Source: an uncultured Lachnospiraceae bacterium (GTDB taxonomy: Bacteria; Bacillota; Clostridia; Lachnospirales; Lachnospiraceae). Taken from it: DNA of 64,000 nucleotides. A program made the translations under genes and the position numbers. The stretch spans positions 1 to 64,000 of the forward strand of contig CANDAG010000002.1 in NCBI GenBank assembly GCA_947382625.1, in the 5' to 3' direction. Positions 8,463 through 31,707 of this stretch are shown here, piece by piece; the stretch's first letter is position 1, and each line of letters begins with the position of its first letter. Below the pieces are notes generated by a model. The model made no database searches, was not told the origin of the DNA, and saw only the letters and a program-made list of their open reading frames with translations.

Positions 8463-8765
8463 ATGTTAAACTATATTTGGGCGGCAATGATCGTATTAGG
8501 AGTTCTCTTTGGAGCTGTAAACGGAAACATGAAGGAGGTCACGGAGGCGGCGCTGGACAGTGCCGGAGAGGCAGTATCCCTTTGTATTGCCACAGCGGGG
8601 ATCCTGGCTTTTTGGGTTGGACTTATGGAGGTGGCCCAGAGCTCCGGGCTGATCGCCAAGCTTACAGATATGCTGTCTCCTTTTATTTCCTTTATGTTTC
8701 CGGGCTTGCCAAAGGAGCATAAGGCGAAAGGGTTTATCTCTATGAACATTATTGCCAATGAATAA
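8463..8765 (+). pseudogene. spmA: Spore maturation protein A, 5' part (interrupted by element)
   Basis: The 99 native codons encode the N-terminal half of SpmA, a membrane protein with a nucleoside-recognition/Gate-type domain needed for normal spore-core dehydration in Bacillus and Clostridium. It has hydrophobic segments near residues 3-20 and 40-58. The match ends at the conserved ...NIIAN segment (codon 99, AAT at 8757-8759). After that come one foreign codon and a TAA. The missing 112 codons are at 31369-31707, and joining at AAT restores one frame of 211 codons, a normal SpmA length. The gene is disrupted by integration. Whether it is dead or restored by excision is unknown. Confidence 0.92.
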
Positions 8766-8782
8766 TTTATAATAGGACTAAA
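8757..8782 (+). other. attL of the spmA-integrated element
   Basis: The junction between spmA and the element. AAT (8757-8759) is shared with attR at 31366. Twelve bases after AAT lies the arm ATAGGACTAAA (8772-8782), the exact reverse complement of TTTAGTCCTAT at the right end (31342-31352). Confidence 0.8.
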
Positions 8783-8826
8783 TAAAGAACCTTTAACTAC
8801 GAGGGCTTTATTAGTCCTATTTTTTA
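8771..8826 (+). terminator. Hairpin with T-run at the left end of the element
   Basis: AATAGGACTAAATAAAG (8771-8787) pairs with CTTTATTAGTCCTATT (8806-8821) with one bulged base, and a T-run follows. It could stop transcription coming from truncated spmA. The left half is also the attP arm, so recombinase binding and termination share this sequence. Confidence 0.6.
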
Positions 8827-8999
8827 TGCGAAAATCGCGGAATCAGTGGAGATACAAGACAGACAACCTTTTCTGTAATGGTACGCCCGGCGCATTCTAC
8901 ATCAAAACTGAACGGGGCGCACTCCGCTCCGTCAATCTTTACAAAAATGTGACTGTTTCCTTTATTTTGGTATTCATAAGAAAGAAATGCTACTTTATA
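8817..8999 (-). pseudogene. Startless coding-like fragment (possible gene remnant)
   Basis: On the minus strand 60 codons are open and end in TAG at 8817-8819. The translation looks protein-like (for example KIDGAECAPFSFDVECAGR) but contains no usable start codon before the upstream in-frame stop at 9000-9002. I do not recognise the family. It may be the 3' remnant of a gene lost when the element was assembled. The remaining non-coding stretch to 9136 holds only the leader of the next gene. Confidence 0.35.
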
Positions 9000-9136
9000 T
9001 CAAGGTATTTTGAAAATAAAATGGTATTAAATAGTGACAGGTTTGTGCTGGAGCGTCACAGATTTGTTTGATGGCAGATATAAATTTGAGATTTGCACCA
9101 CCTTTATTGCGTAAACGCTCCAGAATGGAGGCTAAA

Positions 9137-10504
9137 ATGATAATATCAGCGTTAGAAACAAAATTAATCGTGCGTCCTCTGATAGGATGTCTGACGCACA
9201 CCCACTTCTGGGAGGGGCCATGTAGGGCGGGACTTCCGGAAAACATGACGGCTGAAGCAGAGAGTGCTTCTGCGGACAGGGCCTTTGCCAATGCAGTTGA
9301 GCTGCTTCAGCAGGCAACGGACGAGATTACATTTCTGGATCCCATCGATGTGAGGTATACGGAAAACTTTGTGGTGGGAGAGGATATTTTTGCCAAAATT
9401 GAGGAAGATTTGGATAAGGTGGATTTTTTCCTTTGCATAAACTGGCGTATTCCCAAGCTGGAGAGATATAAAAAGACGGTGGTGATCATGCAAAACGGCA
9501 ATGAAGGGATTGATTTTGCATCTTATTGCAACTCCATTGGGGTAGAGGCCTTTGTGGCTATGGACATGAAGGATCTGAATGAGATTGCGCATACGTTATG
9601 GGTAAGAAAAGCAGTTGGAAATACCAGGGCGCTTGTTCTGACTGCAGGAGGCCTGCCTACCTTCGGGATGCAGAGCCTGATAAGGGATCCCGAAATCATC
9701 AGGCAGCGCTATGGAATGGAAATCATTAAGTTACCCTTCCATGATATTTTTCCCTATATGGATCAGATTACAGACGAGGAAGCGCGACCTCTGGCAGAGG
9801 AAATCATTAACGGAGCCCGGGAGGTAAAGGTTAATACAGATTGGTTCCTTAATGATATTAAGTATTATCTGGCTGCTAAGAAAATGATGGAGGTGTATCA
9901 GTGCAATGCATTTTCAACAGCCTGCCATGAGCTGTGTACCTCAGAAATCCCACAGCAGCGTAAGTTTACGCCCTGTATCTGCCATTCACTCCTGAAAGGA
10001 GAGGGAATTCCCAGCGGATGCGAAGAGGATCTGAATGCTTTACTGGCCATGACGATCATGCAATATGCTGCTTATCGCCCTGCATTTATGGGGAATCCCA
10101 GTATGGAAAGTGAAGAAATACTATTGCTCCACCATGCGGTGCCGGCGCTGTGCATGAACGGTTATGGTTCAAAGCCGCTTTCCTATAAGCTGTGGGCATT
10201 TACGGGACAGGGATTTGGTGGAAAACTGCAGGTTGACTTTACGGAAAATGAACAGGAAGAAATCACACTGGGAAGATTCAACACCATGGGGGATACTATG
10301 TGTGTGAAGGTGGGAAAAGTGCTTCGTTCGGAATACAGGGAAGTATACTGCAGCCCATATTATTACATACAGATGGATAGTGCAAGGAAGTTCATGCATA
10401 ACCTGGCAGGTTTTGGCCACCATCAGGTTCTGGTTTTTGGAAATTACATGGAGATGCTGAAAGAAATCGCAAAGATCATGCACTTCAACATTCTGGAGGG
10501 GTAA
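9137..10504 (+). CDS. L-fucose/L-arabinose isomerase-like sugar isomerase
   Basis: This 455-aa protein resembles the L-fucose/L-arabinose isomerase superfamily, which interconverts aldoses and ketoses at a metal site. The general architecture fits: an N-terminal Rossmann-like half, a central E-rich metal region, and a C-terminal barrel with FMGNPSM and an HHAVPALCMNG segment. The substrate is unknown. The ATG at 9137 is chosen because GGAGG lies at 9127-9131. An upstream in-frame ATG (9125) overlaps that Shine-Dalgarno sequence. It is first in a three-gene operon. Confidence 0.65.
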   Translation: MIISALETKLIVRPLIGCLTHTHFWEGPCRAGLPENMTAEAESASADRAFANAVELLQQATDEITFLDPIDVRYTENFVVGEDIFAKIEEDLDKVDFFLCINWRIPKLERYKKTVVIMQNGNEGIDFASYCNSIGVEAFVAMDMKDLNEIAHTLWVRKAVGNTRALVLTAGGLPTFGMQSLIRDPEIIRQRYGMEIIKLPFHDIFPYMDQITDEEARPLAEEIINGAREVKVNTDWFLNDIKYYLAAKKMMEVYQCNAFSTACHELCTSEIPQQRKFTPCICHSLLKGEGIPSGCEEDLNALLAMTIMQYAAYRPAFMGNPSMESEEILLLHHAVPALCMNGYGSKPLSYKLWAFTGQGFGGKLQVDFTENEQEEITLGRFNTMGDTMCVKVGKVLRSEYREVYCSPYYYIQMDSARKFMHNLAGFGHHQVLVFGNYMEMLKEIAKIMHFNILEG

Positions 10505-10510
10505 AGAGGA

Positions 10511-11647
10511 ATGATATACCTTAACAATGCCGCCAGTTCCTGGCCGAAACCGGAATGTGTCAGGAAAGCGTTCCTGGATTATATGGATGCCCCTCCCTGC
10601 GGGCAGATGCGCGACAGCGGCCTGGGGGAAACCGGGGATATACCGGACAAATGCCGCAGAAGTCTGGGCAGGCTTCTCGGCATTCGGGAATGGCAGAGGA
10701 TTTTCTTTACTTCCGGTGCCACGGAGGCCGCGAACCTGTTTATCCAAGGGCTTAATTGGGAAGGATTTCATGCCCTGGTATCTCAGACAGAACACAACAG
10801 TGTTCTTAGGCCGATCCGAAATCATCCTTTGTTGCAGGAAAAGGTCACGATACTGCCCTGCGACAGAAAGGGGTATGTGTCTGCGGAATCTATCATAGAT
10901 GCAGCGCCGGAGAGGGCAGTCGTATTTATCAATCATTGCTCTAATGTGACAGGGACACTGCAGCCAATGGAAGAACTGGGGGCGGCGGCAAAGAAAAGGG
11001 GATATCTTCTGGCTGTGGATGTTTCTCAGAGTGCCGGCTGCGTACCGGTGGAAGGCGATAAATGGCAGGCTGATATCCTGATCATAACCGGCCATAAAAG
11101 CCTGTCAGGCCTGCAGGGGACGGGTGGGATTTACATCAGGCCCGGCCTTAATATCAAACCGCTGAAATATGGAGGAACCGGAAAAGACAGTGAAAAACAG
11201 GTTTATCAGGAGGGAGAATATGAATATGAGCCTGGTACCCAGAATATGGCGGGGATTGCAGCGTTAAAAGCCGGTGTGGATCATATCCTGAATTTAGGGG
11301 TAGAAAATATCCATGAAAGCGAGCAAAGAAAAATGGAATGGCTTTTGCAGGAATTGAGCTCGATCAGAGGAGTGCAGTTATATGGACCAGGACCGGATGA
11401 AAACAGGGGGCCGCTGGCAGGATTTAATATGAAAGGCTTGTCCCCCTCGGAGCTTTCCTACCTTCTTGCCTATGGATATGAAATTGCAGTGCGGTCAGGA
11501 CTGCAATGTACCCCATTGATGCACACCGCGCTGGGAACAGGAGCTTTGGGACTGGTCAGGGTAAGCATATCACATATGACCGGAATGGAGGAACTGATGG
11601 CATTGGTAAATGCGTTAAAAGAGATCAGTGCGGGGATGATGAAATGA
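10511..11647 (+). CDS. Class V aminotransferase / cysteine desulfurase-like enzyme
   Basis: This 378-aa PLP enzyme is of the NifS/SufS-like class V family. It opens with IYLNNAASSWPKP, has the cofactor-binding SGATEAANL segment, the Schiff-base lysine K196 in TGHKSL, and a cysteine C333 in the VRSGLQCTPLMH loop that corresponds to the catalytic cysteine of cysteine desulfurases. It could release sulfur from cysteine or act on another amino acid. Its pairing with a sugar isomerase is odd and does not suggest Fe-S assembly. The stop overlaps the next start (ATGA). Confidence 0.8.
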   Translation: MIYLNNAASSWPKPECVRKAFLDYMDAPPCGQMRDSGLGETGDIPDKCRRSLGRLLGIREWQRIFFTSGATEAANLFIQGLNWEGFHALVSQTEHNSVLRPIRNHPLLQEKVTILPCDRKGYVSAESIIDAAPERAVVFINHCSNVTGTLQPMEELGAAAKKRGYLLAVDVSQSAGCVPVEGDKWQADILIITGHKSLSGLQGTGGIYIRPGLNIKPLKYGGTGKDSEKQVYQEGEYEYEPGTQNMAGIAALKAGVDHILNLGVENIHESEQRKMEWLLQELSSIRGVQLYGPGPDENRGPLAGFNMKGLSPSELSYLLAYGYEIAVRSGLQCTPLMHTALGTGALGLVRVSISHMTGMEELMALVNALKEISAGMMK

Positions 11648-11925
11648 AAATCACAGAAATCAGAAATTCCATGGAGCAATGCAATGAAGCGGGATGGCAG
11701 GCTTTTGATTTTTTTGTAGAAAGACCGTTGCAGGAGGAGGATATTATGAAGCTGAAGCCTATGGGAAGCTTTTTGTATCTTTCTTCTCTAAAAACTCCTT
11801 TTTTCAAAGTTGACGGGGATTATTTTCATATAAAAGGGATAAAGGGAAACGGTCATTTCAGAGTAGCGCTCCATAGAGAGCATCTTGGTTATATTGATGA
11901 AATAAAAATGACAGCTGAGTCATAA
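11644..11925 (+). CDS. Small protein of unknown function (93 aa)
   Basis: The gene starts inside the last codons of the class V enzyme gene (ATGA overlap), a sign of translational coupling. The protein is soluble with mixed alpha/beta composition and a basic, aromatic C-terminal half (FKVDGDYFHIKGIKGNG). I do not recognise the family. Its fixed place after a class V PLP enzyme suggests an accessory role, but this is inference. No terminator is obvious before the next gene at 12070. Confidence 0.6.
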   Translation: MKITEIRNSMEQCNEAGWQAFDFFVERPLQEEDIMKLKPMGSFLYLSSLKTPFFKVDGDYFHIKGIKGNGHFRVALHREHLGYIDEIKMTAES

Positions 11926-12069
11926 TATAAAAATAAAATCATAAATACGAATGGAATTTTACAGTATGACGGTAATTATTACTATGTGGTTCTTTGAAAC
12001 GGGAATTGAGACTGTTAACAGAAGTACGAAATTGATAGTATGAAGACATCAAAAACGGAGGTGTAAGAA

Positions 12070-13779
12070 ATGAAGAAAAGGCAACTAAAGAAATTAGCAA
12101 GTATTATACTTGCATGTACAATGGTAGTAGGAATAGCTGGATGTGGAAGCTCTCCAAGCTCCTCGAGTTCACCTGATTCTGATACGGCATCATCTGAATC
12201 AGAAAGCGCCGTCGAAAGCAATGATAATGCAGAAACTGTTGCGGAGGAAGAATCTGGGGCTTCACGTAAATTGACTATGGCAATTATGCAGAGTTCTTTT
12301 GTGGAAAACTATGATACTAATTATCTGACCAGGAAGTTGGAAGAAGATATGAATGTTGATATTGAATTTGACATCCTTCCGGCTGATGCAAATGATGCAA
12401 AAACAAAATTGTCAGTGATGGCTAATGGCGGTGGGGAAATGCCGGATATCATTATGATGGCTTTAGGAGGATCTGAAATTTTACAATATGGACAGGCCGG
12501 AGTATTTCTTGACCTGAAGGATTACTTGAATGATAGTTCTATCACGCCTAATTTTAATGCGATAAAGGAAGAAAATCCGGAAGATATGGAAGCGATTATA
12601 AAGGCAATTACCAGTCCGGATGGTGGGATTTACTCCCTGTTTGACTGGAGACCGGAAGAATGGAATTTTACTCCGTTCCGATGCTGGATCAACAAGACAT
12701 GGCTGGATAATCTGGGGTTGGAGATGCCGACCACAACGGATGAGTTTGCCAAAGTAATGAAGGCATTTGCTACACAGGATCCTAATGGGAACGGTGTTCA
12801 GGATGAAATCCCTCTTACTGGATCAAATGCAATATGGGGTGGATACACACCGAATTTCCTCATCAATTCTTTTGTATTCTATAATGGGGGTCTTGCCTTA
12901 AGTGATGACGAGAAAACAGTGATTGCGCCGTTTGTTTCAGATGGATGGCGTGATGCCCTAACGTATATGAAGGAATTGTGTGATATGGGAGCACTGGATC
13001 CTGCAATGTTTACTATGGATGCTACCATGTGTCAGGCACTTTTGGATCAGGACACCAATGTAGTAGGATGTGTTTGTGCCGGAGGCTGGGGATATTGGAA
13101 TGGTGGACTGGACAGCCCGAACTTCCAGGATTTTACACTGCTTGCTCCGTTGGAGGGACCGGAAGGTCTTGACTATGCCTTGTATTATAATTTTGACCCC
13201 GGCAGAATTTTCTTTATCACAAGGAGCTGCGAAGATCCGGAACTGGCCATGGCAGTGGGGGACTGGTTCTTGAAACGTGAAAATTCCATATCAGGCAGAT
13301 ATGGAGAAGAAGGTGTTGACTGGTCTATGGAGGAAGCAGATACATCAACCAGGACAGCATTGTATGCGGCAGAGGGGTATGATTGTAACTTGGCAATCTT
13401 AAATAATGTATGGGGGTCTATGCAGAATAAAATGTGGCAGTCAGTGAATCCGGAGTATGTAAACATTGAGTACTACAGAGGGAAGGATTCATTAGCAGTG
13501 GAAGGTGATACAAGGGATGCTGATTATAGGGCCCAGGGATATGCACTCTACTCAAACCATCCGACATTATTACCAGCTTTATCATATACTGAGGAAGAAA
13601 ATAATGCAATTTCAGAAATACAGACAAATATTATGGAATATGTTGACGGACAGTTGGCAGAGTTTGTGACGGGTAACAGATCTTTGGAAGAATGGGATCA
13701 GTATCTGGCAGATATCGAAAATATGGGTCTGCAGACATGGCTTGAAACAGCCCAAACGGCATATGACAGGATAAAATAG
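12070..13779 (+). CDS. Extracellular sugar-binding lipoprotein (family 1 SBP, LipO/LplA type)
   Basis: This 569-aa ABC solute-binding protein has a lipoprotein signal with a basic N-terminus, a hydrophobic core and lipobox GIAGC (Cys about residue 25). A Ser/Glu-rich linker (30-70) and the binding domain follow. The long form is typical of SBPs paired with LplB/YtcP permeases, which import oligosaccharides. GGAGGTG precedes the start. Genes for two permeases, GH2 and GH31 follow, so the ligand is probably a plant or host glycan fragment cut intracellularly by those enzymes. The 144-bp upstream gap is A/T-rich and I see no strong consensus promoter. Confidence 0.9.
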   Translation: MKKRQLKKLASIILACTMVVGIAGCGSSPSSSSSPDSDTASSESESAVESNDNAETVAEEESGASRKLTMAIMQSSFVENYDTNYLTRKLEEDMNVDIEFDILPADANDAKTKLSVMANGGGEMPDIIMMALGGSEILQYGQAGVFLDLKDYLNDSSITPNFNAIKEENPEDMEAIIKAITSPDGGIYSLFDWRPEEWNFTPFRCWINKTWLDNLGLEMPTTTDEFAKVMKAFATQDPNGNGVQDEIPLTGSNAIWGGYTPNFLINSFVFYNGGLALSDDEKTVIAPFVSDGWRDALTYMKELCDMGALDPAMFTMDATMCQALLDQDTNVVGCVCAGGWGYWNGGLDSPNFQDFTLLAPLEGPEGLDYALYYNFDPGRIFFITRSCEDPELAMAVGDWFLKRENSISGRYGEEGVDWSMEEADTSTRTALYAAEGYDCNLAILNNVWGSMQNKMWQSVNPEYVNIEYYRGKDSLAVEGDTRDADYRAQGYALYSNHPTLLPALSYTEEENNAISEIQTNIMEYVDGQLAEFVTGNRSLEEWDQYLADIENMGLQTWLETAQTAYDRIK

Positions 13780-13796
13780 TAATTTTAATTTATAAC

Positions 13797-13836
13797 AGGA
13801 TTCCTGTATGCTTTCTGTATACAGGAATCCTATTTT
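13797..13836 (+). terminator. Intercistronic hairpin between SBP and permease genes
   Basis: A 13-bp perfect stem (13797-13809 with 13819-13831) and a 9-nt loop are followed by ATTTTA. A partial terminator or 3' mRNA stabiliser here would give more binding protein than permease, a common pattern in sugar ABC operons. Confidence 0.7.
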
Positions 13837-13854
13837 AATATTGGAGAGATAAAT

Positions 13855-14775
13855 ATGAAAAAAAAGAAACTGAAAAAAAGGATTTTGGCCCGTTGGCAGA
13901 TTTACCTGCTTTTATTATTACCGGTGGCTTATCTTATTATTTTCTGTTACGTTCCCATGTTCGGGCAGATTATTGCATTTAAAGATTATAATGTGAAAGA
14001 TGGAATTTTTGGAAGCCGTTGGGTAGGTTTGGATAATTTCAGAAATTTTTTTGAATCTTACAATTTTTCAATGGTATTGAAAAATACTTTGACTCTATCT
14101 ATTTATAGTTTTCTGGCGGGATTCCCCATTCCCATATTGCTGGCACTTTTGCTGAATGCCCTGCCGGGACAGAGGTTTAAGAAGTTGGTTCAGGGAACAG
14201 CTTTCATACCATATTTCATTTCCACAGTAGTTATGGTAGGACTTATATTCAGGCTGCTGGATTACAGAACCGGTATGTATGGCACAATATTTACGGCGCT
14301 TACCGGGCAGACTGCTGTTGATCTGTTTTCAAAAGGAAAATGGTTTAAGCATCTGTATGTCTGGTCAGGTGTATGGCAGTCTATGGGATATAATACGGTA
14401 GTTTACACGGCAGCTCTTGCCAGTGTGGACGAGAGCCTTCATGACGCTGCAAGAATTGACGGTGCAAGCCGCTGGAAGAGAGTTCTGCATATTGACTGGC
14501 CGACCATAAAGCCGACGGTGGCAATCCTGATGATCTTGTCCTTAGGGCATATTATGAGTGTAGGGCTTGACAAGGTCCTACTAATGCAGACAAGCCTTAA
14601 TATAAGCTATAGTGAGGTAATATCTACGTATGTTTATAAAATTGGTCTTGCTTCCGGATTAGGAAATTTCTCACGGTCAACGGCGGTGAGTATGTTCAAC
14701 TCAGTGATCAATCTGATTATGTTGTTCATTGCCAATACGATATCGAAAAAAGTGACACAGAGTTCAATATTCTAA
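13855..14775 (+). CDS. Sugar ABC transporter permease, LplB type
   Basis: This 306-aa inner-membrane permease has about six hydrophobic segments, starting at about residues 17-37, and the EAA-type coupling loop DAARIDGASRWKRV (about residue 200) that contacts the ATPase. The N-terminus is lysine-rich. GGAGAG precedes the start. With the next gene it forms the heterodimeric channel served by the upstream lipoprotein. No ATPase is encoded in this cluster, so a shared MsmK/UgpC-like ATPase elsewhere probably powers it. Confidence 0.92.
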   Translation: MKKKKLKKRILARWQIYLLLLLPVAYLIIFCYVPMFGQIIAFKDYNVKDGIFGSRWVGLDNFRNFFESYNFSMVLKNTLTLSIYSFLAGFPIPILLALLLNALPGQRFKKLVQGTAFIPYFISTVVMVGLIFRLLDYRTGMYGTIFTALTGQTAVDLFSKGKWFKHLYVWSGVWQSMGYNTVVYTAALASVDESLHDAARIDGASRWKRVLHIDWPTIKPTVAILMILSLGHIMSVGLDKVLLMQTSLNISYSEVISTYVYKIGLASGLGNFSRSTAVSMFNSVINLIMLFIANTISKKVTQSSIF

Positions 14776-14790
14776 AGGGGGTGAATTGTG

Positions 14791-15681
14791 ATGAAGTTTC
14801 GAAAGTATTGTATAGAAGATAAATTCTTTTATTTGATGTCTTACATAATTGCCATATTTGTATTTGTGGCTGTATTGTATCCGTTCATTTATGTGGTGGC
14901 AGCTTCTTTTTCATCAGGGAACGCTATATCCAGTGGCAAGGTTGTTTTACTGCCGGTAGAGTTTACCTTGCAGGGCTATGAAATTGTGTTTAATAATTCG
15001 GCTGTACTCACCGGATTCTTAAATTCGGTGCTTTATACGGTGTCCGGGACAGCGATTAACCTTGTGATGACAATAACTGCAGGTTACTGCCTATCCAGAG
15101 ATGATGTTCCGGGTGCAAAGGTAATTTTGTTTTTATTTACATTCACCATGTTTTTTGGCGGAAATATGATCACAAACTACATGCTGGTGCGTAGTTTGGG
15201 ATTTTTGGATACTATATGGGCGGTTATTATCCCGGGGGCCATCAGTGCCTATAATCTGATCATTGCACGGACATTTATGCAGACCAGCATCCCGAAGGAG
15301 CTGTTTGAGGCCGCCGTGGCAGACGGCTGTTCTGATATCAAATATTACCTGAGTATTGTACTCCCCTTATCAAAGCCGGTAATGTCTGTCCTTCTTCTTT
15401 TTAGCGCGGTAGGGCATTGGAACTCTTATTTCGGCCCCATGATCTACCTGAATAACCGGAAGAGGTTTTCCCTGCCGTTGATTTTGAAGGAGATCCTGAT
15501 TTCCAGCCAGATCGACCCATCTACGGTAACAGACCCTGAGCTTCAGATGAAAATAGCTTCTATGGCTATGTCGATACAGTATGCTTTGATCGTGGTGGTG
15601 ATTGTCCCGATCATCATCATCTATCCGTTTATCCAAAAACATTTTGCAAACGGAATTATGTTAGGGGCAGTGAAGGGATAA
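14791..15681 (+). CDS. Sugar ABC transporter permease, YtcP/LplC type
   Basis: This 296-aa partner permease has hydrophobic segments from about residue 15 onward and the coupling loop FEAAVADGCSDIKYY (about 173-187). The family ending ANGIMLGAVKG is present. The start is taken as ATG 14791 rather than GTG 14788, because it is better spaced from AGGGGGTG. It lies 15 bp after the LplB-type gene in the same operon. Confidence 0.92.
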   Translation: MKFRKYCIEDKFFYLMSYIIAIFVFVAVLYPFIYVVAASFSSGNAISSGKVVLLPVEFTLQGYEIVFNNSAVLTGFLNSVLYTVSGTAINLVMTITAGYCLSRDDVPGAKVILFLFTFTMFFGGNMITNYMLVRSLGFLDTIWAVIIPGAISAYNLIIARTFMQTSIPKELFEAAVADGCSDIKYYLSIVLPLSKPVMSVLLLFSAVGHWNSYFGPMIYLNNRKRFSLPLILKEILISSQIDPSTVTDPELQMKIASMAMSIQYALIVVVIVPIIIIYPFIQKHFANGIMLGAVKG

Positions 15682-15715
15682 AATCTGATTGGGGAGAGGA
15701 AGGTAGAAAAAGGAC

Positions 15716-18700: not shown

Positions 18701-18829
18701 GGGGCATTGAAGCCGTTACGGAAACAATTGTTTGCCAGAGTAAAAAAGGATCAGGGCATCAAAATTTCCTTTCCCAATGCGATAAGTAATCAGGCTGTGA
18801 TCAGCGCAATGAGGATTGTAAAGGTATAA
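15716..18829 (+). CDS. Glycoside hydrolase family 2 enzyme
   Basis: This 1037-aa retaining exo-glycosidase is of the beta-galactosidase/beta-glucuronidase/beta-mannosidase superfamily. The order is a jelly-roll sugar-binding domain (about 1-170), an Ig-like domain, a TIM barrel with acid/base N577-E578 in GIQNES and the probable nucleophile E646 in IGEYGQ, and a C-terminal malectin-like beta domain (about 850-1037). There is no signal peptide, so it probably acts in the cytoplasm on imported oligosaccharides. The long C-terminal module argues against classical LacZ. Specificity cannot be fixed by eye. Confidence 0.88.
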   Translation: MEYRETRVINDAWESILAEGSAQDSYQDVEAKEWKKVTVPHNWEDYQGYHRVSHGNLHGTAWYRRNLGYDECWKGKRVFLFFEGVSSYADVWVNEQYVGGHKGGRTCFSLEITDALDPAGANKVLVRARHPEKINDLPWICGGCYGTPNTEGSQPIGIFRPVHIVATGDIRIKPFGVYITTPNLTKSYSDVHIESEIVSFQAGGKTVILRQELIAPQGAVVQKVESEFWVDGEGEFTCSQELKGVKSPSLWYPDEPSLYRVRTTVLVEGQVMDVVENSFGFRSITWENFDTSLSEVIDAEKLTEEPSEENRYFVTYTRGNENAKVAIIPGGVRVHLAEFTKERTVIVIDTVLKNQDGKEHTVQLESFVQTFNRTKSIANLITEITLLPGEQKTITQICEPLVFPDLWSEENPYLHNVMSTVRGIDEFLKEYCQTSTSFGIFMCEGIVNKGNPWVPGPNKAGWEKHRFLINGRHYFLNGTCEYEHELGNDHGFAQEMIRTRMNMFQAAGFNAFREAHCPHNLRYLEICEQEGILYWPQMGAHIYFDTEEFKENFRNLTVEWMKERRNSPAVILWGIQNESMLPVDFTREITELIRRLDVTSPGQRKAVTCNGGAGSDWNIPQNWSGTYGGTVEAYGDEAIKMRLIGEYGQYRVKGKHAEGDMEKCQNTGGDVSEELFAYCLETKVREAEKVREYFYGHFQWIMVSHANPGREVQYCLDGSGSNSVGVINSKGIFTNWGEPTDAYYMYRANYTPPEKEAVLYLVSHTWPDRFTAPCQADIVAYSNCEEVELYNDYGEILSGKEKRGKTGEHFTFRNVPVNYGILTAKGYNQGKCVAVDRILFPALPMPVQEGVQKEKEFQIYSSDEDVYRVNCGGMDYTDRNGKIWLADRRFVPGSWGCISWGTEYEDVEDEIGSMARVWDKPEGCADALLMQQFRYGKDKLAYYFPVPEAEYMVELYFMEPWYGLAGENAAKWRVFDVAMNDKVCIRGLDIWMESGGALKPLRKQLFARVKKDQGIKISFPNAISNQAVISAMRIVKV

Positions 18830-23728: not shown

Positions 23729-23890
23729 ATGGATGGAAAGGGGAAAATACCGGATATAAAAATTTTAATGAATGCACAGACGAGAACAGCATATTGCAGA
23801 TAAGCCATGGGCAACCTGCATATGTACTAAATGGGCGAATACCGGACAAGCAGAGAGAAATATATTAAAGAGAGCAGGGAAGGGATTGAT

Positions 23891-24145
23891 ATGCTGATGG
23901 ACGTGCAGACATTAAGAGAGCTGGCAGATGTGGACATCTGTACGGTTCCAAAGGAATCGCTGGTGGATATACGGAATGTGAAGATAGACGGGGCAAAGGA
24001 GCGTAATGAGAGGATTTCTGACTATATCAGGCAGGTAAAAAATCCATACTGTTTCCAGTGTAATGGCATTATTGTAAAAATGAATTTCAGCCAGTCAGAA
24101 GGGACTCTGGAAGAAAAGCTGGCAGGCTATTTCCTGTCAGTGTGA
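23891..24145 (+). CDS. Small recombinase-associated protein (DUF6870-like)
   Basis: An 84-aa acidic, soluble protein. Its pattern (LRELADVDICTVPKESL, then NPYCFQCNG) resembles small proteins I associate with serine-recombinase modules of Clostridia, possibly DUF6870. The function is unknown. An accessory factor such as a recombination directionality factor is a reasonable guess from position only. The start at 23891 follows GGGAAGGGA. An in-frame ATG at 23831 lacks a Shine-Dalgarno sequence. It lies 69 bp before the first recombinase gene. Confidence 0.6.
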   Translation: MLMDVQTLRELADVDICTVPKESLVDIRNVKIDGAKERNERISDYIRQVKNPYCFQCNGIIVKMNFSQSEGTLEEKLAGYFLSV

Positions 24146-24214: not shown

Positions 24215-25930
24215 ATGAATACATATCTAAAAGGTGTCTATACGGCTGACACTTATTTCCGCCTGTCAAAGGAAGACGGGGACAAGGCGGAGAGTGACAG
24301 TATTGTTAACCAGAGGGCTCTTGCGAAAGAGTTCCTGAAAACGCATCCCGATATTCAAATTTATAAGGAGAGAGTTGACGACGGTTTTTCCGGGGTCAGT
24401 TTCGAGCGCCCTGCATTTAAGGAAATGCTGGAGGATATTAAGTCCGGAAAAGTAAACTGTGTGATTGTAAAAGACCTGTCGAGGTTTGGCAGGGACTATA
24501 TTGAGGCAGGACGGTATATTGAGAAGATATTTCCATACCTTGGCGTCAGGTTTATTGCAATTAATGACAATATAGATACGGCTTCCGGGTTAAGCGGTGC
24601 AGAGGAGATGCTGATCCCGTTCAAGAACCTGATCAATGATGCCTACTGCCGGGATATTTCCGTAAAGATCAGGAGCCATCTGGATATTAAGAGGAAGAAC
24701 GGACAGTATATCGGCTCTTTTGCCCCTTATGGCTATCGGAAGTCCCCGGATGATAAAAACAAGCTGATTGTTGATGAAAAGGCGGCTTCGGTGGTGCGCC
24801 AGATTTTTAAATGGAAAATAGGAGGCATGAGCGGGGAGAGGATAGCGGAAAAGCTGAATGAGCTGGGAATCCCCACGCCCATGGAGTACAAGCATAAGAA
24901 CGGGGAGAATTTCCAGTGCGGCTTCCGCAGGAAGGCAGACCCGAAGTGGCAGGCAAACGGTGTCAATTACATTTTACGGAATGAAGTATATACAGGCGTG
25001 CTTTTGCAGGGGAAAACATCTTCCCCCAACTATAAGATAAGGAAGCGGACAAAGAAGGACGAGAAAGACTGGATTCGCTGTGAGGACAGCCATGAGGCAG
25101 TTGTATCGAAAGAGGATTTCATGGTGGTTAAGGAAGCCTTTGGGGCGGATACAAGAGTTGCACCGGAAGAAAAGATATTATATTTGTTTTCAGGCTTTGT
25201 AAAATGCGGGCATTGTAACGGGAATATGACCAGAAAGACAATTCCGGTAAAAGGCAAAAAATATGTTTATCTGGTCTGTATTGAAAATAAGAATAAGACG
25301 GGCTGCACGAATAGTAAAGGGGTTCCTTTGGAGAAATTTGAAAAGGTTATCCTGCAGGTAATCAACCTGTATATAGAGAGCGTTTTTGAATTAAGCCAGT
25401 TGCTGGAATTAGTTGATGAAGTTTCTCACCATGGATATTTTGTGGAAAAAATTCAGGAAAGTATTATGGATAAGGAGTTGGAGATAGAAAAGAAACGCCA
25501 GTATGCGTCTTCTGCTTATCAGGATTATAAGGAAGGAGTGTTATCAAAAGAAGAATATCTGGAATTAAAGGATTGTTACAAAACAGATATTGAAAGTCTG
25601 CAAAAAGAAATTGGAGCGCTGGAAGCTGAGTATGAAGAAACCGTAAAGAATAGAAGAGATCAGGCAGGATGGATGCAACGCTTTATCGAATACAGAGGAT
25701 TCAAAGAGCTTTCGCGGGAATTGTTGGCAAGGCTGGTAGAAGAGATAAAAGTATATGATAAAGACAGGATTGAGGTTACATTTAAGTTCAAGTCAGAGTA
25801 TGAACAGGCATGGACCTATATAAAAAAGGTGGAACAAAGCGGAATGCCGGAAGGAGGGGCAGATGGCAAGGAAAAGCAGGAAGGCCGGCAGGGGCGTAGC
25901 TGGGAAAGTTTCTGTTGCTGTCCTTGCTAA
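24215..25930 (+). CDS. Large serine recombinase 1
   Basis: A 571-aa large serine recombinase. The N-terminal resolvase domain (about 8-155) has catalytic S18 in YFRLSKED and the conserved VKDLSRFGRD segment. A recombinase domain (about 165-275), a zinc ribbon (CGHC near residue 332, second Cys pair CIENKNKTGC) and a C-terminal coiled coil (about 405-480) follow. Large serine recombinases cut both strands at a 2-bp core and integrate directionally. The 3' end overlaps the next gene by 68 bp. It is the first of three paralogues. Confidence 0.95.
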   Translation: MNTYLKGVYTADTYFRLSKEDGDKAESDSIVNQRALAKEFLKTHPDIQIYKERVDDGFSGVSFERPAFKEMLEDIKSGKVNCVIVKDLSRFGRDYIEAGRYIEKIFPYLGVRFIAINDNIDTASGLSGAEEMLIPFKNLINDAYCRDISVKIRSHLDIKRKNGQYIGSFAPYGYRKSPDDKNKLIVDEKAASVVRQIFKWKIGGMSGERIAEKLNELGIPTPMEYKHKNGENFQCGFRRKADPKWQANGVNYILRNEVYTGVLLQGKTSSPNYKIRKRTKKDEKDWIRCEDSHEAVVSKEDFMVVKEAFGADTRVAPEEKILYLFSGFVKCGHCNGNMTRKTIPVKGKKYVYLVCIENKNKTGCTNSKGVPLEKFEKVILQVINLYIESVFELSQLLELVDEVSHHGYFVEKIQESIMDKELEIEKKRQYASSAYQDYKEGVLSKEEYLELKDCYKTDIESLQKEIGALEAEYEETVKNRRDQAGWMQRFIEYRGFKELSRELLARLVEEIKVYDKDRIEVTFKFKSEYEQAWTYIKKVEQSGMPEGGADGKEKQEGRQGRSWESFCCCPC

Positions 25931-27608
25931 AAATTTTGTAGGTATTTACACCAGATTGTCGATTGAAGATAACGGTTACGAAAGTAAGGATTCCATACAA
26001 AATCAGATCGCATTTTTAAAGGAATATATCGAGAGGCATGAAGATAATTTTGAGCTTGTGGAAGTCTACGTGGATAATGGGGCTACGGGAACCAATTTTG
26101 ACAGGGAAGAATGGAACCGTATGGTCAGCGATATAAAGGCCGGGAAGATCAACTGTGTAGTGGTTAAGGACTTTTCAAGACTGGGGCGGAATTATATTGA
26201 AGTGGGGAATTATCTGGAAAAGGTATTTCCATTTTTAGGTGTGAGGGTTATTGCGGTCAACGAAAATTTTGACAGTGAAAAGCAGACATTTGAAAATAGT
26301 ATGTTGATGAATTCCCTGACTAATATAGTGAACGAATATTATGCGAGGGATATATCAAAAAAAGTTACACAGACGAAGCGTACCATGCAGAAGAATGGAG
26401 AGTGTGTCAGCGGGGTGCTTCCGTATGGTTACACGCGCGCAAGCAGGCGTGAAAAGTCGGACAAGGATAGAAAGAAGCTGGTTATTGATCAGGAAGGCGC
26501 AGATGTGGTGAAAAAGATATTTGAATGGCGTCTGCAAAAGAAAGGCTGCACTGTAATCGCCAATTATCTAAACGAGCTTGCCATACCGTCACCAGGGCTG
26601 TACCGCTATATGAATGGAAATCAATCTTTTAAACGCAGCAGTAATGCAAAGTGGAAGTCAAAACATGTTGCAGGGATTTTGTCAAATCCGGTCTATCTTG
26701 GACATATGGTTCAGGGAAAGACGAGATGCAGTTATTTTGAGCAGGAGGGGAAGCTGCGGTTTCTTCCCAAAGAGGATTGGATCATTGTAGAGGGAACGCA
26801 TGAACTGCTTGTCACACAGGAACAATTTGACGCAGTGGCCGCAATGGCGGAGGAAAGCCGGAAAAGGCACATACAGCAGATGGAGGCTCATAAGGATATT
26901 GCCCATGTGGAAAATCCGCTGCGTAAAAGGGTTTTTTGTGGACAGTGTGGTAGCATGATGACAAGGCGGAGCAGGGTGGAAAATGGGAAAAGAGATTACT
27001 GTTTCTTTTGCGGTGCGCCTAAATTAAAGCTGGGCGTTCATTGTACAAATACCCATATACATGAGATGCCGCTTATGGAGGCGGTAACAGAAGCAACAGA
27101 CCGACAGCTTCGGTTATTGGGAAAAATAGAGAGTGGTTGGAACAGGCAGAAGCAATCTGAAGAACATAAGAAAAAGGAACAGACGACAGAAAGCAGAAAA
27201 AGGGATTTGGGAGAAGCTATTGACAGGGCTAAAAAGCAAAAACAGGAAATTTACGCTGACAGGAAAGAAGGGTTGCTTTCACCCGATGATTATGAGTACG
27301 AAAAAAAACGTCTGGTAAAAAAGCTGGAAGAGTATGATGCCGCAATGGAAAGTCTTATGAAAGACAGCAGAATGGAAAAAAAACTGGAAGATGTATTGGA
27401 GCGGCATTGCAAGAATGTTTTAAATCTGAAAGGCGAGGGAATAGCGGATGATGTGATTTCCATGGATTTGCTGGATGCATTAGTTAAAAAAATAGTGGTC
27501 TATTCACCGGAAAGAGTTAAGGTCACCTTTGCTTTTTCAGATGAACTGGAAGAATGGACCAGAAAATTACAGACAGATGCGCCACGGGAAAGGGAGTGGA
27601 AAAGTTGA
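25863..27608 (+). CDS. Large serine recombinase 2
   Basis: A 581-aa large serine recombinase with a basic N-terminal extension (ARKSRKAGRG), catalytic S33 in YTRLSIED, the VKDFSRLGRN segment, a recombinase domain, a zinc ribbon (CGQC, later CFFC) and a coiled coil near 420-500. GGAGG precedes the start inside the tail of recombinase 1, so the genes are tightly coupled. The sequence is clearly paralogous to, not duplicated from, its neighbours. It may act jointly with the other two, as in tandem recombinase modules of some mobile elements. Confidence 0.95.
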   Translation: MARKSRKAGRGVAGKVSVAVLAKNFVGIYTRLSIEDNGYESKDSIQNQIAFLKEYIERHEDNFELVEVYVDNGATGTNFDREEWNRMVSDIKAGKINCVVVKDFSRLGRNYIEVGNYLEKVFPFLGVRVIAVNENFDSEKQTFENSMLMNSLTNIVNEYYARDISKKVTQTKRTMQKNGECVSGVLPYGYTRASRREKSDKDRKKLVIDQEGADVVKKIFEWRLQKKGCTVIANYLNELAIPSPGLYRYMNGNQSFKRSSNAKWKSKHVAGILSNPVYLGHMVQGKTRCSYFEQEGKLRFLPKEDWIIVEGTHELLVTQEQFDAVAAMAEESRKRHIQQMEAHKDIAHVENPLRKRVFCGQCGSMMTRRSRVENGKRDYCFFCGAPKLKLGVHCTNTHIHEMPLMEAVTEATDRQLRLLGKIESGWNRQKQSEEHKKKEQTTESRKRDLGEAIDRAKKQKQEIYADRKEGLLSPDDYEYEKKRLVKKLEEYDAAMESLMKDSRMEKKLEDVLERHCKNVLNLKGEGIADDVISMDLLDALVKKIVVYSPERVKVTFAFSDELEEWTRKLQTDAPREREWKS

Positions 27609-29173
27609 TAGATGGCTATGTTGCAGAGTATCTTAGAATATCTGATGATGACGTGGATGTTGGAAAGGGAAAGGACGAGAGCGGCAGTATCAGCAACCAG
27701 AGAAGTGTGCTGAGGCACTTTATCAGTAATCATGAAGAATTGTCAAAATATCCGGTCAGGGAATTTTTGGATGACGGGTATTCCGGGGTGAATTTTAATC
27801 GTCCCGGGGTTCAGAATCTGCTTAGGGAAGTAAAAGAAAATAAGGTTGCATGTATCGTAGTCAAGGATTTATCCCGCTTTGGAAGAAATTATATTGAAGT
27901 GGGTGATTACATAGAACAGATATTTCCATTTCTTGGGGTGCGTTTTGTTGCTATATCAGATAATTATGACAGCTTTTTAAACTCAGGTGGAATAGAAGTA
28001 GGATTTAAAAATCTAATCCATGATATGTACAGCAGGGATCTGTCTAAAAAGATAAAGTCTGTAAAGCGTATGCATCAGAAAAAGGGAACTTATATAGGCG
28101 GAGATGTGCCTTATGGGTATATGTATAGCGGAAACAAGAAAGCTGAAAAAGGCATTGGTATCTATCAACCGGATTTGGATGCGGCAGTGGTGGTAAAGAA
28201 GATTTTTGGACTGGCGGCGGAAGGGAATACGCCGGTCAATATTGCAAAGTATCTGAATGATCAAGGGATTCCTACACCAGGTGCCTATAAGAATCAGACA
28301 AGGAATTATAATTACCGGGTGAAGAATACAAAAAGTAATTTGTGGGTGGGCAGTAAGATTAGAGATATCTTGCAGAATGAAGTATACATTGGAACTTATA
28401 TTTGTCACAAAGCTACTTCAATCAGGCCAAGAGAAATGAACCGGAATGATGTGTCAGAGTATCTGCGATTTGAGAATGCCCATGAGGCGTTGGTTTCGAG
28501 AGAAATTTTTGATGCTGCACAAAGAGTCATAAGGTCCAGGAAAAAAAGAGATATCTATAAGAAAGCAGAGAACTGCCATGCATTACAGGGAAAGGTGAAA
28601 TGCGGATATTGCGGGTATGCCATGAGCAGGAGCAGTAATAAACCGGATTCCGATTATCTATGCAGAATGGGTGACAGTTGCGGTTCCCATTTACGGATCA
28701 AGGAGCAGATTCTGGAAGCTGCTGCTCTGGAAATTTTAAAGAAGCTGATTTTCATTCAGAGAGATGCTGAACTTAAAAAAGAGAAGAACGGGGGTAAAGT
28801 GCTGTCAGAACTTACAAAAGGCAGGGAAGAAACAAGAGTTCTGGAAATGAAGATAGAACATTGTAAGACCAGTCGTTTAAACCTGTACCGGCAGTGGAAA
28901 GAGCAGCAGATTACAAAAGATGAATATATAAGGAAGAGAGATGAATACACAAAACAGGAGGAAGACCATAAGGCAAGGATGCAGCAGTTAGATGAACAGT
29001 TAGGCAGGCTGATCGAAGAACAGGGGAAAAAGCCGACTTGCGATTTACTAGGATATAGCGGTGTCCAGTCTTTGACGAAGGAATTAGCGGATAAATTAGT
29101 AGAGAGAATTGATGTATATGATGGGGATAGGGTGGAAGTGACTTGGAAGTTTGGGGATGAGTATAATGTATAA
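27605..29173 (+). CDS. Large serine recombinase 3
   Basis: A large serine recombinase of about 522 aa with catalytic S13 in YLRISDDD, VKDLSRFGRN, a recombinase domain, a zinc ribbon (CGYCGYAMSR with a later Cys pair) and a coiled coil near 400-460. The start is uncertain. TTG 27605 forms a TTGA overlap with the previous stop and is 8 bp from AGGGAG, whereas an in-frame ATG at 27554 has no clear ribosome site. Eight bases after the stop lies the first copy of the right attachment arm. Confidence 0.93.
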   Translation: MIDGYVAEYLRISDDDVDVGKGKDESGSISNQRSVLRHFISNHEELSKYPVREFLDDGYSGVNFNRPGVQNLLREVKENKVACIVVKDLSRFGRNYIEVGDYIEQIFPFLGVRFVAISDNYDSFLNSGGIEVGFKNLIHDMYSRDLSKKIKSVKRMHQKKGTYIGGDVPYGYMYSGNKKAEKGIGIYQPDLDAAVVVKKIFGLAAEGNTPVNIAKYLNDQGIPTPGAYKNQTRNYNYRVKNTKSNLWVGSKIRDILQNEVYIGTYICHKATSIRPREMNRNDVSEYLRFENAHEALVSREIFDAAQRVIRSRKKRDIYKKAENCHALQGKVKCGYCGYAMSRSSNKPDSDYLCRMGDSCGSHLRIKEQILEAAALEILKKLIFIQRDAELKKEKNGGKVLSELTKGREETRVLEMKIEHCKTSRLNLYRQWKEQQITKDEYIRKRDEYTKQEEDHKARMQQLDEQLGRLIEEQGKKPTCDLLGYSGVQSLTKELADKLVERIDVYDGDRVEVTWKFGDEYNV

Positions 29174-29178
29174 AAAAG

Positions 29179-29205
29179 TTTAGTCCTATCTCGACACCGG
29201 TTAAT
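29179..29205 (+). other. Internal attachment site (right arm copy 1)
   Basis: TTTAGTCCTAT (29179-29189), 13 bases, then AAT (29203-29205). Arm sequence, spacing and the inner GACACC all match the site at 31342-31368. It marks the junction of the recombinase element and the next cassette. Confidence 0.75.
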
Positions 29206-29230: not shown

Positions 29231-29327
29231 ATTTTGCGAAAAATATGCAAAATGTTTATATAATCGTTGACGTTTTGGCATACTAAACATATAATTGTAT
29301 TATTATTTTGCAAAAATACTGCAGAAT
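29231..29327 (+). promoter_or_regulatory. Promoter of the AbiL-like operon flanked by 23-bp repeats
   Basis: The -35 TTGACG (29267-29272) and -10 TATAAT (29290-29295) are 17 bp apart, close to ideal sigma-A. Two similar 23-bp sequences, ATTTTGC then A-rich then TGCA then AAT, lie at 29231-29253 and 29305-29327, one upstream of the -35 and one in the leader. They look like paired operators. Confidence 0.65.
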
Positions 29328-29339
29328 GGAGGAGATTAT

Positions 29340-30668
29340 ATGCTGTTGGAATTTAAAGTGGAAAACTATAAATCATTTTTAGAGGAAGTAACATTTTCTA
29401 TGGTGGCAGCGCCGAAACAATCAGGATTGGATTATAGTCTGCTGAAAGAAAAAGTGAAGGGTAAACTAGTGAAGGGATTGAGTTCTTCTGTGATTTACGG
29501 GCCGAATGCTGCCGGAAAAACCAATATTATAGGGGCGATAGATGTACTTCGGGCAATCATCATAAGAGGAAATATAAGAAATTCAGAAGAAAAAAATTCT
29601 CCCAATGCTGCAGCTGCAGCATTGGAATTGATACCAAATAATAGATTGACAGCGGCTCGTCCGGTAAAATTCTCAATTACATTTTTAGAAAAAAAGATGC
29701 AAATACAATATGAGATTTTGATGGATTTGGGAACATTCCTTGATGAGGAATATTGTAGAGAGATTAAGGAAGAAAGATTGAGTGTTAATGGAGAGGATAT
29801 TTTTATCAGAAGCGAAAATTTAACGATTGGTAATTTAAAGGGAATTGAAGATTTTCTTTCTGATATTACTAATCAAAATAAAGAGAATGTAATGGGGATT
29901 GCACGAAACAGTCTTAACAAAGATGAATTGTTTTTGACCAATGGATTCAAGCTGATTTTTTCACAGAAACTTGTGAAATTAATAGTTGATTGGTTTACAG
30001 ATAAATGTATGGTCATTTATCGGGCAGATACGATACAGTTAATTAAAAGATTTTCCGACCCAAAGAAAAAGGCTGTCTATGTAGAAAGGACAACAAATCA
30101 GGCGGCAGAATTATTTGGCATCAATTCAAATGCAGTAGGTTATGTAGTGAGTGATGATGAGCCGGAGGCAAAATTATATTCTATCTTTAAAAATGCAGAA
30201 AATGAAAAGAATACGGCAATTGTTTCTGAAATTTTTGAGTCTTATGGAACCATCCGTTTTATTAACATGTTCCCATTGGTGATAAAAGCAATCATAACGG
30301 GAGGAACACTTATTGTGGATGAGTTTGATGCTTCTATTCATCCAATGGCTTTGATGAGCATTATTAATATTTTTCATAATGATGATATAAATATTCATCA
30401 TGCACAGTTGATTTTCAATACACATAATCCTATTTTCCTGAATTCAAATTTGTTCCGCCGAGATGAGATCAAGTTTGTAGAGAGGGATGATGATAATCAT
30501 TATAGTACTTTGTATACTTTGGCATCATTTGGAACAACGGGAGAAAAGGGAGTGCGTAAGCATGAAGATTATATGAGTAAATATTTTATCAGCCAGTATG
30601 GTGCAATCAAAGATATTGATTTTACACCAATCTTTGAACAGCTTATAGGAGACGAAAGCGAGGTTTGA
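29340..30668 (+). CDS. AbiL-like AAA-family ATPase (RloA/AbiLi type)
   Basis: This 442-aa OLD/SMC-type ATPase begins with LLEFKVENYKSF and has Walker A GPNAAGKT at 54-61, Walker B LIVDEFD (D327-E328) and a NTHNP switch segment about 40 residues later. Such ATPases pair with a TOPRIM or RloB nuclease-like partner in abortive-infection systems (AbiL; the analogous pair in PARIS). GGAGG fixes the start at 29340. The gene ends 2 bp before the partner's start codon. AT-rich composition points to transfer. Confidence 0.8.
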   Translation: MLLEFKVENYKSFLEEVTFSMVAAPKQSGLDYSLLKEKVKGKLVKGLSSSVIYGPNAAGKTNIIGAIDVLRAIIIRGNIRNSEEKNSPNAAAAALELIPNNRLTAARPVKFSITFLEKKMQIQYEILMDLGTFLDEEYCREIKEERLSVNGEDIFIRSENLTIGNLKGIEDFLSDITNQNKENVMGIARNSLNKDELFLTNGFKLIFSQKLVKLIVDWFTDKCMVIYRADTIQLIKRFSDPKKKAVYVERTTNQAAELFGINSNAVGYVVSDDEPEAKLYSIFKNAENEKNTAIVSEIFESYGTIRFINMFPLVIKAIITGGTLIVDEFDASIHPMALMSIINIFHNDDINIHHAQLIFNTHNPIFLNSNLFRRDEIKFVERDDDNHYSTLYTLASFGTTGEKGVRKHEDYMSKYFISQYGAIKDIDFTPIFEQLIGDESEV

Positions 30669-30670
30669 CC

Positions 30671-31330
30671 ATGGCAGAGCGGAAACCAAATAAGAAGTAT
30701 TATTTCAGCGTAGAGGGCGAGACAGAACATTGGTATTTAAAGTGGTTGCAGGATTTAATCAATGAAACAGAAGAAGCGGCATACAAAATTTCGATTGACT
30801 GTCCTGTTAGGAAAAATCCTCTGAAGCATGCAAAGTCATTAACCGTAACAAGGAAAATAGAGGTATATCATTTTTTCGATTATGAAAGTGATGAGGGAAT
30901 ACATGAGCAGAGTTTTAAAAATGCTATGGATAATATGAAAAAAGCGCAGAATCTTGGCAAGCAGATAGTATACAGATCCGGTTACAGTAATTTTACATTT
31001 GACCTGTGGATTATTCTGCATAGGCTGGACTGCAATAGTTCTTATGCACATAGAAAACAGTATATTACTGCAATAAACAGGGCATATAATGAAAAATTTC
31101 AGGATATGGAAGAATATAAAGAAGAAGATAACTTTAAAAGATGTTTGAAAAAATTACAGCTTTCCAATGTAAAAGATGCGATAGGGAGAGCCAAAGGCAT
31201 TATGAAGAAAAATGAAGACAGTGGATATATTTTACATCACTACAAAGGTTATAAATATTATAAAGAAAATCCATCTCTAGCAGCGTGGGAGGCAATAGAG
31301 AAAATTTTGATGGATTGCAAATTGACTTAG
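30671..31330 (+). CDS. RloB-like TOPRIM-fold protein (AbiLii type)
   Basis: A 219-aa RloB-family protein. The N-terminus YYFSVEGETEHWYLKWL carries the TOPRIM-type glutamates (EGETE), and SNFTFDLWIILH matches the family's conserved SNxxFELWLLLH segment. An HFFDYESDE acidic stretch between them may supply the metal-binding aspartates. With the upstream ATPase it forms an AbiL-like abortive-infection pair in which this protein is the likely effector. The ATG at 30671 is preferred over an upstream TTG. Confidence 0.78.
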   Translation: MAERKPNKKYYFSVEGETEHWYLKWLQDLINETEEAAYKISIDCPVRKNPLKHAKSLTVTRKIEVYHFFDYESDEGIHEQSFKNAMDNMKKAQNLGKQIVYRSGYSNFTFDLWIILHRLDCNSSYAHRKQYITAINRAYNEKFQDMEEYKEEDNFKRCLKKLQLSNVKDAIGRAKGIMKKNEDSGYILHHYKGYKYYKENPSLAAWEAIEKILMDCKLT

Positions 31331-31341
31331 AGTTAAAAATT

Positions 31342-31369
31342 TTTAGTCCTATCTAGACACCAGCTAATG
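31342..31369 (+). other. attR at the spmA junction (right arm copy 2)
   Basis: TTTAGTCCTAT (31342-31352), 13 bases, then AATG (31366-31369) that is also spmA codon 99 and the first base of the next codon. The AATG is shared with attL (8757-8760). Confidence 0.85.
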
Positions 31370-31707
31370 TCCTGGGGCTGGGGTGGGCGGCTACGCCGGC
31401 GGGCTTGAAGGCCATGGAGGAATTGGCGAAGCTGGAGGAGGAGAGAGGGAATCCGGCGTATGCGGCTTCCGGTGGTTCAGGTATAGAAGCAACAGGCGGA
31501 AAGACTGGCAGGATTGCCAGTAATGAAATGTGTACGTTTTTGATATTGAATATTTCTTCTTTGCAATTGATACCGGTTAATATGATTGCTTACCGGCAGC
31601 AGTACGGGAGCGTGAACCCGGCAGGGATCATTGGACCGGCGATTGTGGCCACGGCAGTGAGCACGGGTGTGGCAGTAATTTACTGTAAAGTTATGGGGAG
31701 AAAATAA
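31366..31707 (+). pseudogene. spmA: Spore maturation protein A, 3' part, copy 1
   Basis: Codons AAT GTC CTG GGG CTG GGG TGG ... continue exactly where the 5' half (8463-8759) stops. The product includes LGLGWAATPAGLKAMEELAK and the membrane segments of the SpmA C-terminal half, ending ...YCKVMGRK. By itself it has no start or ribosome site. Excision between the two AAT sites would rebuild a complete 211-codon gene. spmB, normally the next gene, is absent. Confidence 0.9.

Follow-up and report, generated by a model that had tools for sequence, protein, structure and literature searches.

A 22.6-kb element with three serine recombinases splits spmA in an uncultured Lachnospiraceae bacterium and may be a sporulation-gene-intervening element

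The window analysed here is a stretch of 64,000 nucleotides from an uncultured Lachnospiraceae bacterium (GenBank assembly GCA_947382625.1, contig CANDAG010000002.1, positions 1 to 64,000), in which the sporulation gene spmA is split by a 22.6-kb element. This raises the question whether spmA is broken for good or whether it can be reassembled by excision of the element. The N-terminal half of spmA (8463-8759, plus strand; codons 1-99), which starts downstream of an rsmI-type methylase gene, is an open frame and ends at AAT (8757-8759). The C-terminal half (31369-31707, plus strand; 112 codons and a stop) is open as well, and the frame resumes at AAT (31366-31368). A core AATG is common to both junctions, with the left copy (attL) at 8757-8760 and the right copy (attR) at 31366-31369. 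Joining the halves across this core gave 211 codons in frame and without a stop, precisely as the initial annotation of this stretch had proposed. The joined ends of the element likewise reproduced the 50-bp site predicted there, TTTAGTCCTAT-N13-AAT-N12-ATAGGACTAAA, with 11-bp perfect inverted arms centred on AA. Both attP arms lie on the plus strand, the left one (AATAATTTATAATAGGACTAAA) at 8761-8782 and the right one (TTTAGTCCTATCTAGACACCAGCT) at 31342-31365, and the AA site reads TTTAGTCCTATCTAGACACCAGCT[AA]TGAATAATTTATAATAGGACTAAA. In composition shuffles of both 60-nucleotide ends, an 11-bp perfect inverted arm with a spacing asymmetry of at most 3, as the real ends have, arose in 2 of 20,000 cases, and an arm of this length at any spacing in 11 of 20,000. 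By eye, the left arm doubles as one side of a terminator-like hairpin (8772-8820). The N-terminal half used as a query gave a single match (E ≤ 1) in its own, 88%-complete assembly, and no other N-terminal half was found there.

The locus was compared with 37 genomes of the genus (numbered G; the genome of the window is G000), 397 genomes of the family, and a sample of 150 family genomes. Three large serine recombinases are encoded in a row on the plus strand of the element (24215-25930, 25863-27608 and 27554-29173), and Pfam identified all of them as such. The initial annotation had placed them at the right end of the element; they are not its last genes, as an RloA/AbiLi-like ATPase and an RloB-like protein, a defence pair, are encoded beyond them (29295-31330, plus strand). 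Recombinase 1 is the best integrase candidate because it is the best conserved of the recombinases, at 86% in the G160 element and 77% in that of G182, and its relatives in phage and plasmid records were all less than 60% identical. Recombinase 2 is without a counterpart in the G160 element, and a search for recombinase 3 in named genomes yielded one relative. A DUF6870 protein (23831-24145, plus strand), by its position alone a candidate directionality factor, precedes the recombinases in the spmA elements of G000, G160 and G182 and in the pdaB elements of G152 and G170 described below, and the order is kept in three of four related contigs of a viral database. Pfam scans of 15 open reading frames of the element, two of them without any match, revealed neither phage structural or replication genes, PHROGs not being part of the search, nor relaxase or transfer genes. 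Here a spmA gene whose frame is restored on precise joining occurs together with recombinases of the element's own and with attL, attR and an attP of about 50 bp, as read from the sequence.

We regard it as probable, with moderate confidence, that this is a non-phage, gin-like intervening element whose excision restores spmA in cells undergoing sporulation. An element with a DUF6870 and serine-recombinase module, comprising three recombinases here, would insert site-specifically at the spmA attachment site with the core AA. Its removal by recombination between attL and attR would put spmA back together exactly and set free a circle carrying the 50-bp attP. The element would be kept because the reversal occurs in sporulating cells; the likeliest place is the mother cell, in which spmA expression is expected, as for skin, SP-beta and gin. 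The anatomy of the element, its recurrence, the precise empty sites, the open halves and the conserved recombinase module appear directly in the compared genomes, and purifying selection was measured on a pdaB that is split in both of two sisters (see below); excision, its trigger and timing, and DUF6870 as directionality factor are what we infer.

The nearest relative in kind is the gin element in gerE of Bacillus cereus ATCC10987, described as 28.6 kb long, without phage genes, and with three serine recombinases and a predicted AA crossover, which is excised by the recombinase GirC and the factor GirX (PMC5595907). The likeness lies in the interrupted spore gene, the lack of phage genes, the three serine recombinases and the AA crossover, as taken from the published description of gin. 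In contrast to gin, which sits in gerE of Bacilli and has a demonstrated excision, the elements described here lie in spmA and pdaB of another family, their recombinases stand in one row behind DUF6870, and their excision is predicted. The elements skin in sigK and SP-beta in spsM are also reported as site-specific elements that split spore genes, which are rejoined on excision (PMC5595907, PMC10747680). These are prophages or prophage-like with a single recombinase, whereas no phage genes were detected in the window element and the spmA elements carry two or three recombinases. The yin element in yabG of Clostridium botulinum has been seen both integrated and as a circle (PMC10747680). It likewise interrupts a clostridial spore gene, but is prophage-like and described from one strain, in contrast to the several species and several codons found here.

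If spmA is a target of such elements, related genomes should hold the empty site. An N-terminal half of spmA is present in 30 of the 37 genus genomes. It breaks at codon 99/100 with the same left end in three of them (G000, G160 and G168), and arms like the left arm of the window were found in G160, G168 and G182. In G160 the same two ends enclose an element of only 5.8 kb with DUF6870, two recombinases and, by eye, a purine cargo, so that different cargo lies behind the same ends; its junctions also occur in record JAAUZD010000040.1, a metagenome-assembled Lachnospiraceae genome. The G168 contig stops 1.4 kb beyond the left end, and no C-terminal half was found. In G182, spmA is broken at codon 174 by a related element, the two ends of which are on different contigs and whose arms are of the same type as those of the window but surround [TA] instead of AA. 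One further gene is cut by a contig end (G177), and 25 genus genomes have a whole spmA. All 27 genus relatives that are uninterrupted at codon 99/100 matched the predicted empty site without gaps, at 80-99 of 120 nucleotides, which bears out the initial annotation. In the sample of 150 family genomes, 95 have an N-terminal half, and the 94 besides G000 have it in open frames of at least 195 codons. The left halves of the two spmA attB sites (codons 99 and 174) agree at 10 of 12 positions of their consensus sequences, which were built from 26 and 25 genomes. With up to three mismatches, the right-arm pattern was found at seven sites in six of the 37 genus genomes, six of them at spmA sequence and one inside the window element; with one mismatch, G000 was the sole match among the 397 family genomes. 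An assembly chimera, which might be suspected in an 88%-complete assembly of 113 contigs, would hardly produce the same junctions in other genomes; we consider it extremely improbable and, given this recurrence, ruled it out.

A second spore gene is split in the same genus. In G152, G169 and G170, the piece behind an arm with a GG core (see below) was PdaB-like (polysaccharide deacetylase family sporulation protein), this being the best model, scoring 146 bits against a cut-off of 237 with the C-terminal part only. Searches with the N- and C-terminal parts over the 37 genus genomes showed pdaB to be contiguous in 14 and split in 19 (G000, G150, G151, G152, G155, G157, G160, G161, G163, G165, G167, G169, G170, G171, G175, G176, G179, G181 and G182); it was unclear in two (G153, G183) and not found in two (G168, G172). 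Splits fall mainly at AILAA|GG, DAAWGN|ED, MTGGWV and near codon 206, and the gene is split twice in G171, G169 and G157; on contig C61 of G171 it lies in three pieces with two interruptions. Leaving out G165 and G167, pdaB pieces were fetched from 17 split genomes, and in 16 of these they held a serine recombinase, although G163 and G181 gave no more than distant matches; none was present in the 3.5 kb fetched for G160. In the genome of the window, the halves lie 84 kb apart on one contig and in the same orientation (31043-31324 and 115261-115842 of C8); they have the core TGGGGGAATG in common, and close to the right end there is a serine recombinase. At the predicted join, the whole gene of G177 agrees with the split one of its sister genome G155. 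A separate arrangement was seen in G155 (contig C20, 1013-3901), where the pdaB halves flank a recombinase gene and are oppositely oriented, as an inversion of one segment would leave them. Splitting of spore genes may be a habit of this lineage, with related elements at two codons of spmA and recombinase-bearing elements at several codons of pdaB.

Conservation of a gene while it is split would be expected if the gene is put together again. In a tree of the 21 genomes having both pdaB pieces, G150 and G151 were sisters (support 97/98), and they have in common a colinear 12-kb pdaB element (site B). Their pdaB C-terminal parts differ by 11 nonsynonymous and 73 synonymous changes, corresponding to a ratio of nonsynonymous to synonymous substitution rates (dN/dS) of 0.017 at a dS of 1.39; dN/dS of the N-terminal part was 0.164, and dS of the recombinases was 1.17, close to that of the C-terminal part. 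If the insertion is ancestral, as the colinearity of the element suggests, this one sister pair suggests that pdaB has been under selection while split. All 14 of the split C-terminal parts that were examined have an open frame across the same 150-151 codons, to the same end. Across all genomes, the comparison of dN/dS between split and intact pdaB was weak, as pairs were kept only at dS < 1.5 and the remainder were saturated (3 of 91 split/split, 14 of 196 intact/split and 11 of 91 intact/intact pairs kept). These results also bear on the possibility that the element is occasionally excised for its own transfer, at any growth stage, with the restoration of spmA a by-product without developmental control. 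Such a behaviour would be compatible with the other explanations and would fit the intact recombinase genes, the other cargo behind the same ends in G160 and the related modules, with their DUF6870-recombinase order, in viral-database contigs. However, the Pfam scans of the 15 reading frames showed no transfer genes, and own transfer alone gives no explanation for the conservation of a shared split gene; we consider it unlikely. Streptococcal integrative and conjugative elements with serine-recombinase triplets also carry three such enzymes in one element, but are conjugative and have other targets, such as rumA.

Further to the right, the window holds traces of other events at spmA. The initial annotation had overlooked a second, truncated spmA C-terminal half (34860-35187, plus strand), an internal copy of the right arm with core AA (29179-29205, plus strand) before the RloAB-like pair, and a defence cassette encoding a CapP-like M78 peptidase, a 480-aa protein and a Pycsar-type transmembrane effector (32000-34473, plus strand). 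The C-terminal half used as a query gave two matches in its own assembly (31369 and 34852-35157). The second copy is 92% identical to the first over 249 nucleotides and lies behind a right arm with a GG core (TTCGTGTCACTAACTTGACACAA, 34835-34857, plus strand). As an aside, the middle 96 nucleotides of the two copies are identical (31440-31535 and 34899-34994) and both sides differ, which looks like gene conversion. We infer that the stack consists of the first C-terminal half, the defence cassette and the second C-terminal half, and that the 22.6-kb element was inserted last. Behind the stack (35432-63887), ABC transporters, an AAA-ATPase/PDDEXK protein, a UvrD helicase and GH130-type genes were noted.

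Extra pieces of the spmA C-terminal half occur in G000 and nine relatives (G150, G151, G152, G153, G155, G177, G179, G181 and G182), although in G177 and G182 the piece may be the far half of the interrupted gene. Of 13 copies inspected, 12 share their first codon, which follows a GG-core arm (TTCGTGTCAYTAACTTGACACAA). With up to two mismatches, this pattern gave 26 matches in 12 of the 37 genomes, and the reversed control gave 0; assigned by eye, 13 precede spmA C-terminal pieces, 8 precede short 3' tails of subtilase-type genes, 3 precede a pdaB C-terminal part, and 2 were unassigned. With the tail on contig C60 of G000, the one tail beside which a whole gene was checked, a subtilase gene is a third target of the arm family; the best model for this subtilase was CspBA (367 bits against a curated cut-off of 1250). 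The region (1145-7243) comprises the whole Csp-like subtilase gene, a gene that is KilA-N-like by eye, a large unknown gene, the GG arm and a 14-codon subtilase tail. A reading of the GG arms as transposon ends was dropped, as the same arm type was found beside recombinase triplets in pdaB. No GG-class left arm was seen at spmA in the stretches fetched, no genome-wide search having been made. The cassettes between the C-terminal copies include Pycsar-type, HipA/HIRAN-type and MNT/HEPN-type genes. Four extra copies are present in G155; on its contig C31 (2227-13212), a live spmA is followed by four partial C-terminal halves with defence-like cassettes, the last of which seems, by eye, to be cut at codon 174 by the first 12 nucleotides of a left arm, so that the order of events may be readable. 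Staphylococcal cassette chromosomes, which target rlmH, also have large serine recombinases (ccr) and form stacked elements in which the 5' target gene stays intact. The GG-arm arrays of the relatives, though not the 22.6-kb element, likewise stack at one attB behind a whole 5' target gene, and the ccr models scored at most 106 bits here, far under their cut-offs of 700-900.

These arrays open another explanation, namely that spore genes are hit as safe harbours, silent and dispensable during growth, and that a carrier loses spmA and regains it by recombination with DNA bearing a C-terminal half. In relatives such as G150, G152, G153, G155, G179 and G181, cargo, a right arm and a left-over C-terminal half come after an intact spmA. 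G150 and G155 have in common a unit of C-terminal half, cargo and arm with 98.8% identity over 3292 bp, which stands directly behind the live spmA in G150 and in second place in G155; their intact spmA genes align at only 74.5%. The switch point between G150 and G151, about 37 nucleotides inside the C-terminal half, fits homologous recombination. On the other hand, a disposable gene would not be expected to behave as pdaB does, with strong purifying selection in G150 and G151 though both copies are split, and with all 14 examined C-terminal parts open over the same codons. We regard the safe-harbour account as possible, though on balance doubtful.

Several observations weigh against excision of the window element during sporulation. 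No excised circle or rejoined spmA copy was seen in the assemblies, the 50-bp attP pattern had 0 matches in the viral contigs, and sigma-E and sigma-K patterns had no match upstream of spmA, DUF6870 or recombinase 1. Split spmA is uncommon, occurring in 4 of the 30 genus genomes with an N-terminal half. The insertions in G000 and G160 look independent, because these two genomes are not nearest in the N-terminal half and other species are closer, so that selection while split is not evident for spmA. For 8 of the 19 split pdaB genes (G155, G157, G160, G161, G165, G167, G169 and G181), simple excision is not shown because the pieces are on different contigs or in opposite orientation. Stops occur in some pdaB pieces (G163, G183). 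The split state of pdaB is scattered over the tree no less than by chance: it requires 7 changes (4 forced by well-supported branches) compared to a mean of 7.1 for shuffled labels, and gains or losses are therefore frequent. Intact spmA stacked before old right arms in several relatives suggests that an intact gene is favoured over a split one, and the stacked C-terminal halves show that in some lineages spmA was regained by a route other than excision. Finally, all genomes are assemblies, several of them incomplete and one (G157) with 10% contamination. Two comparisons were set aside: between G000 and G160, spmA has a dS similar to that of the recombinases, which was dropped as proof since other species have closer N-terminal halves, and dN/dS of the spmA N-terminal half was uninformative. 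The proposal of the initial annotation, that spmA is a site for sporulation-gene-intervening elements, is partly supported. The site-specific element, its attachment sites and the possible restoration of the frame are well founded and recur in other species; excision, circle formation and control by sporulation are predictions, and some lineages regained spmA otherwise. The proposal gains much from the splitting of pdaB in 19 of 37 genomes and the purifying selection on the shared split pdaB.

The remaining cargo of the element (9068-23578, plus strand) encodes an unknown protein of 478 aa, a class V aminotransferase, a sugar ABC transporter (solute-binding protein and two permeases), a GH2 enzyme, an AraC regulator and a GH31 enzyme. 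The RloAB-like pair seems to have joined the right end as an additional module, because the right-end motif occurs on both its sides: one copy (29171-29205) directly follows recombinase 3, the other lies at 31334-31368, and the two are 86% alike. Elsewhere on the contig, near 138.5 kb, lies a gene named spmB-like by eye; no spmB was found in the fetched genus loci, which reached at most about 1.5 kb behind spmA. The genome also has a ylbJ-like gene (167 bits, under the cut-off of 305) and two Spo0A_C proteins above the cut-off. By eye, a block of AATAATT, about 13 bases and CATA was noticed before spmA in several of the relatives inspected.

To our knowledge, each description of intervening elements, in Bacilli and in a few clostridia, has concerned a single gene, and spmA is a target new to us for a gin-like element. 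A literature search at the level of titles and abstract beginnings, with most subscription journals outside its scope, found among the papers listed no report of spmA or pdaB as the target of an intervening element. In C. difficile, spmA and cspBA are listed in the sigma-E regulon (PMC3789822). According to Durrant et al., competence genes are enriched as a class among the targets of such recombinases, and in the main text of that paper "sporulation" occurs in a reference only (PMC10083194). More tentatively, and as a possibility rather than an expectation, several spore genes of the genus might be reassembled in a programmed manner, spmA and pdaB (possibly also csp-type protease genes) being shared integration platforms for a superfamily of recombinase elements. 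Arms of the spmA and pdaB types would find their codon through the core dinucleotide of attP (AA, TA or GG), and stacked C-terminal halves with their defence cassettes would swap the C-terminal half of SpmA between species.

A single genus with two spore genes split at several codons, and with whole and split sister species, offers a comparative test of whether such elements are parasites or regulators of sporulation. It also shows how defence genes may be stacked downstream of a developmental gene, and it is a caution that split genes can be overlooked when the ability to sporulate is judged from genomes.

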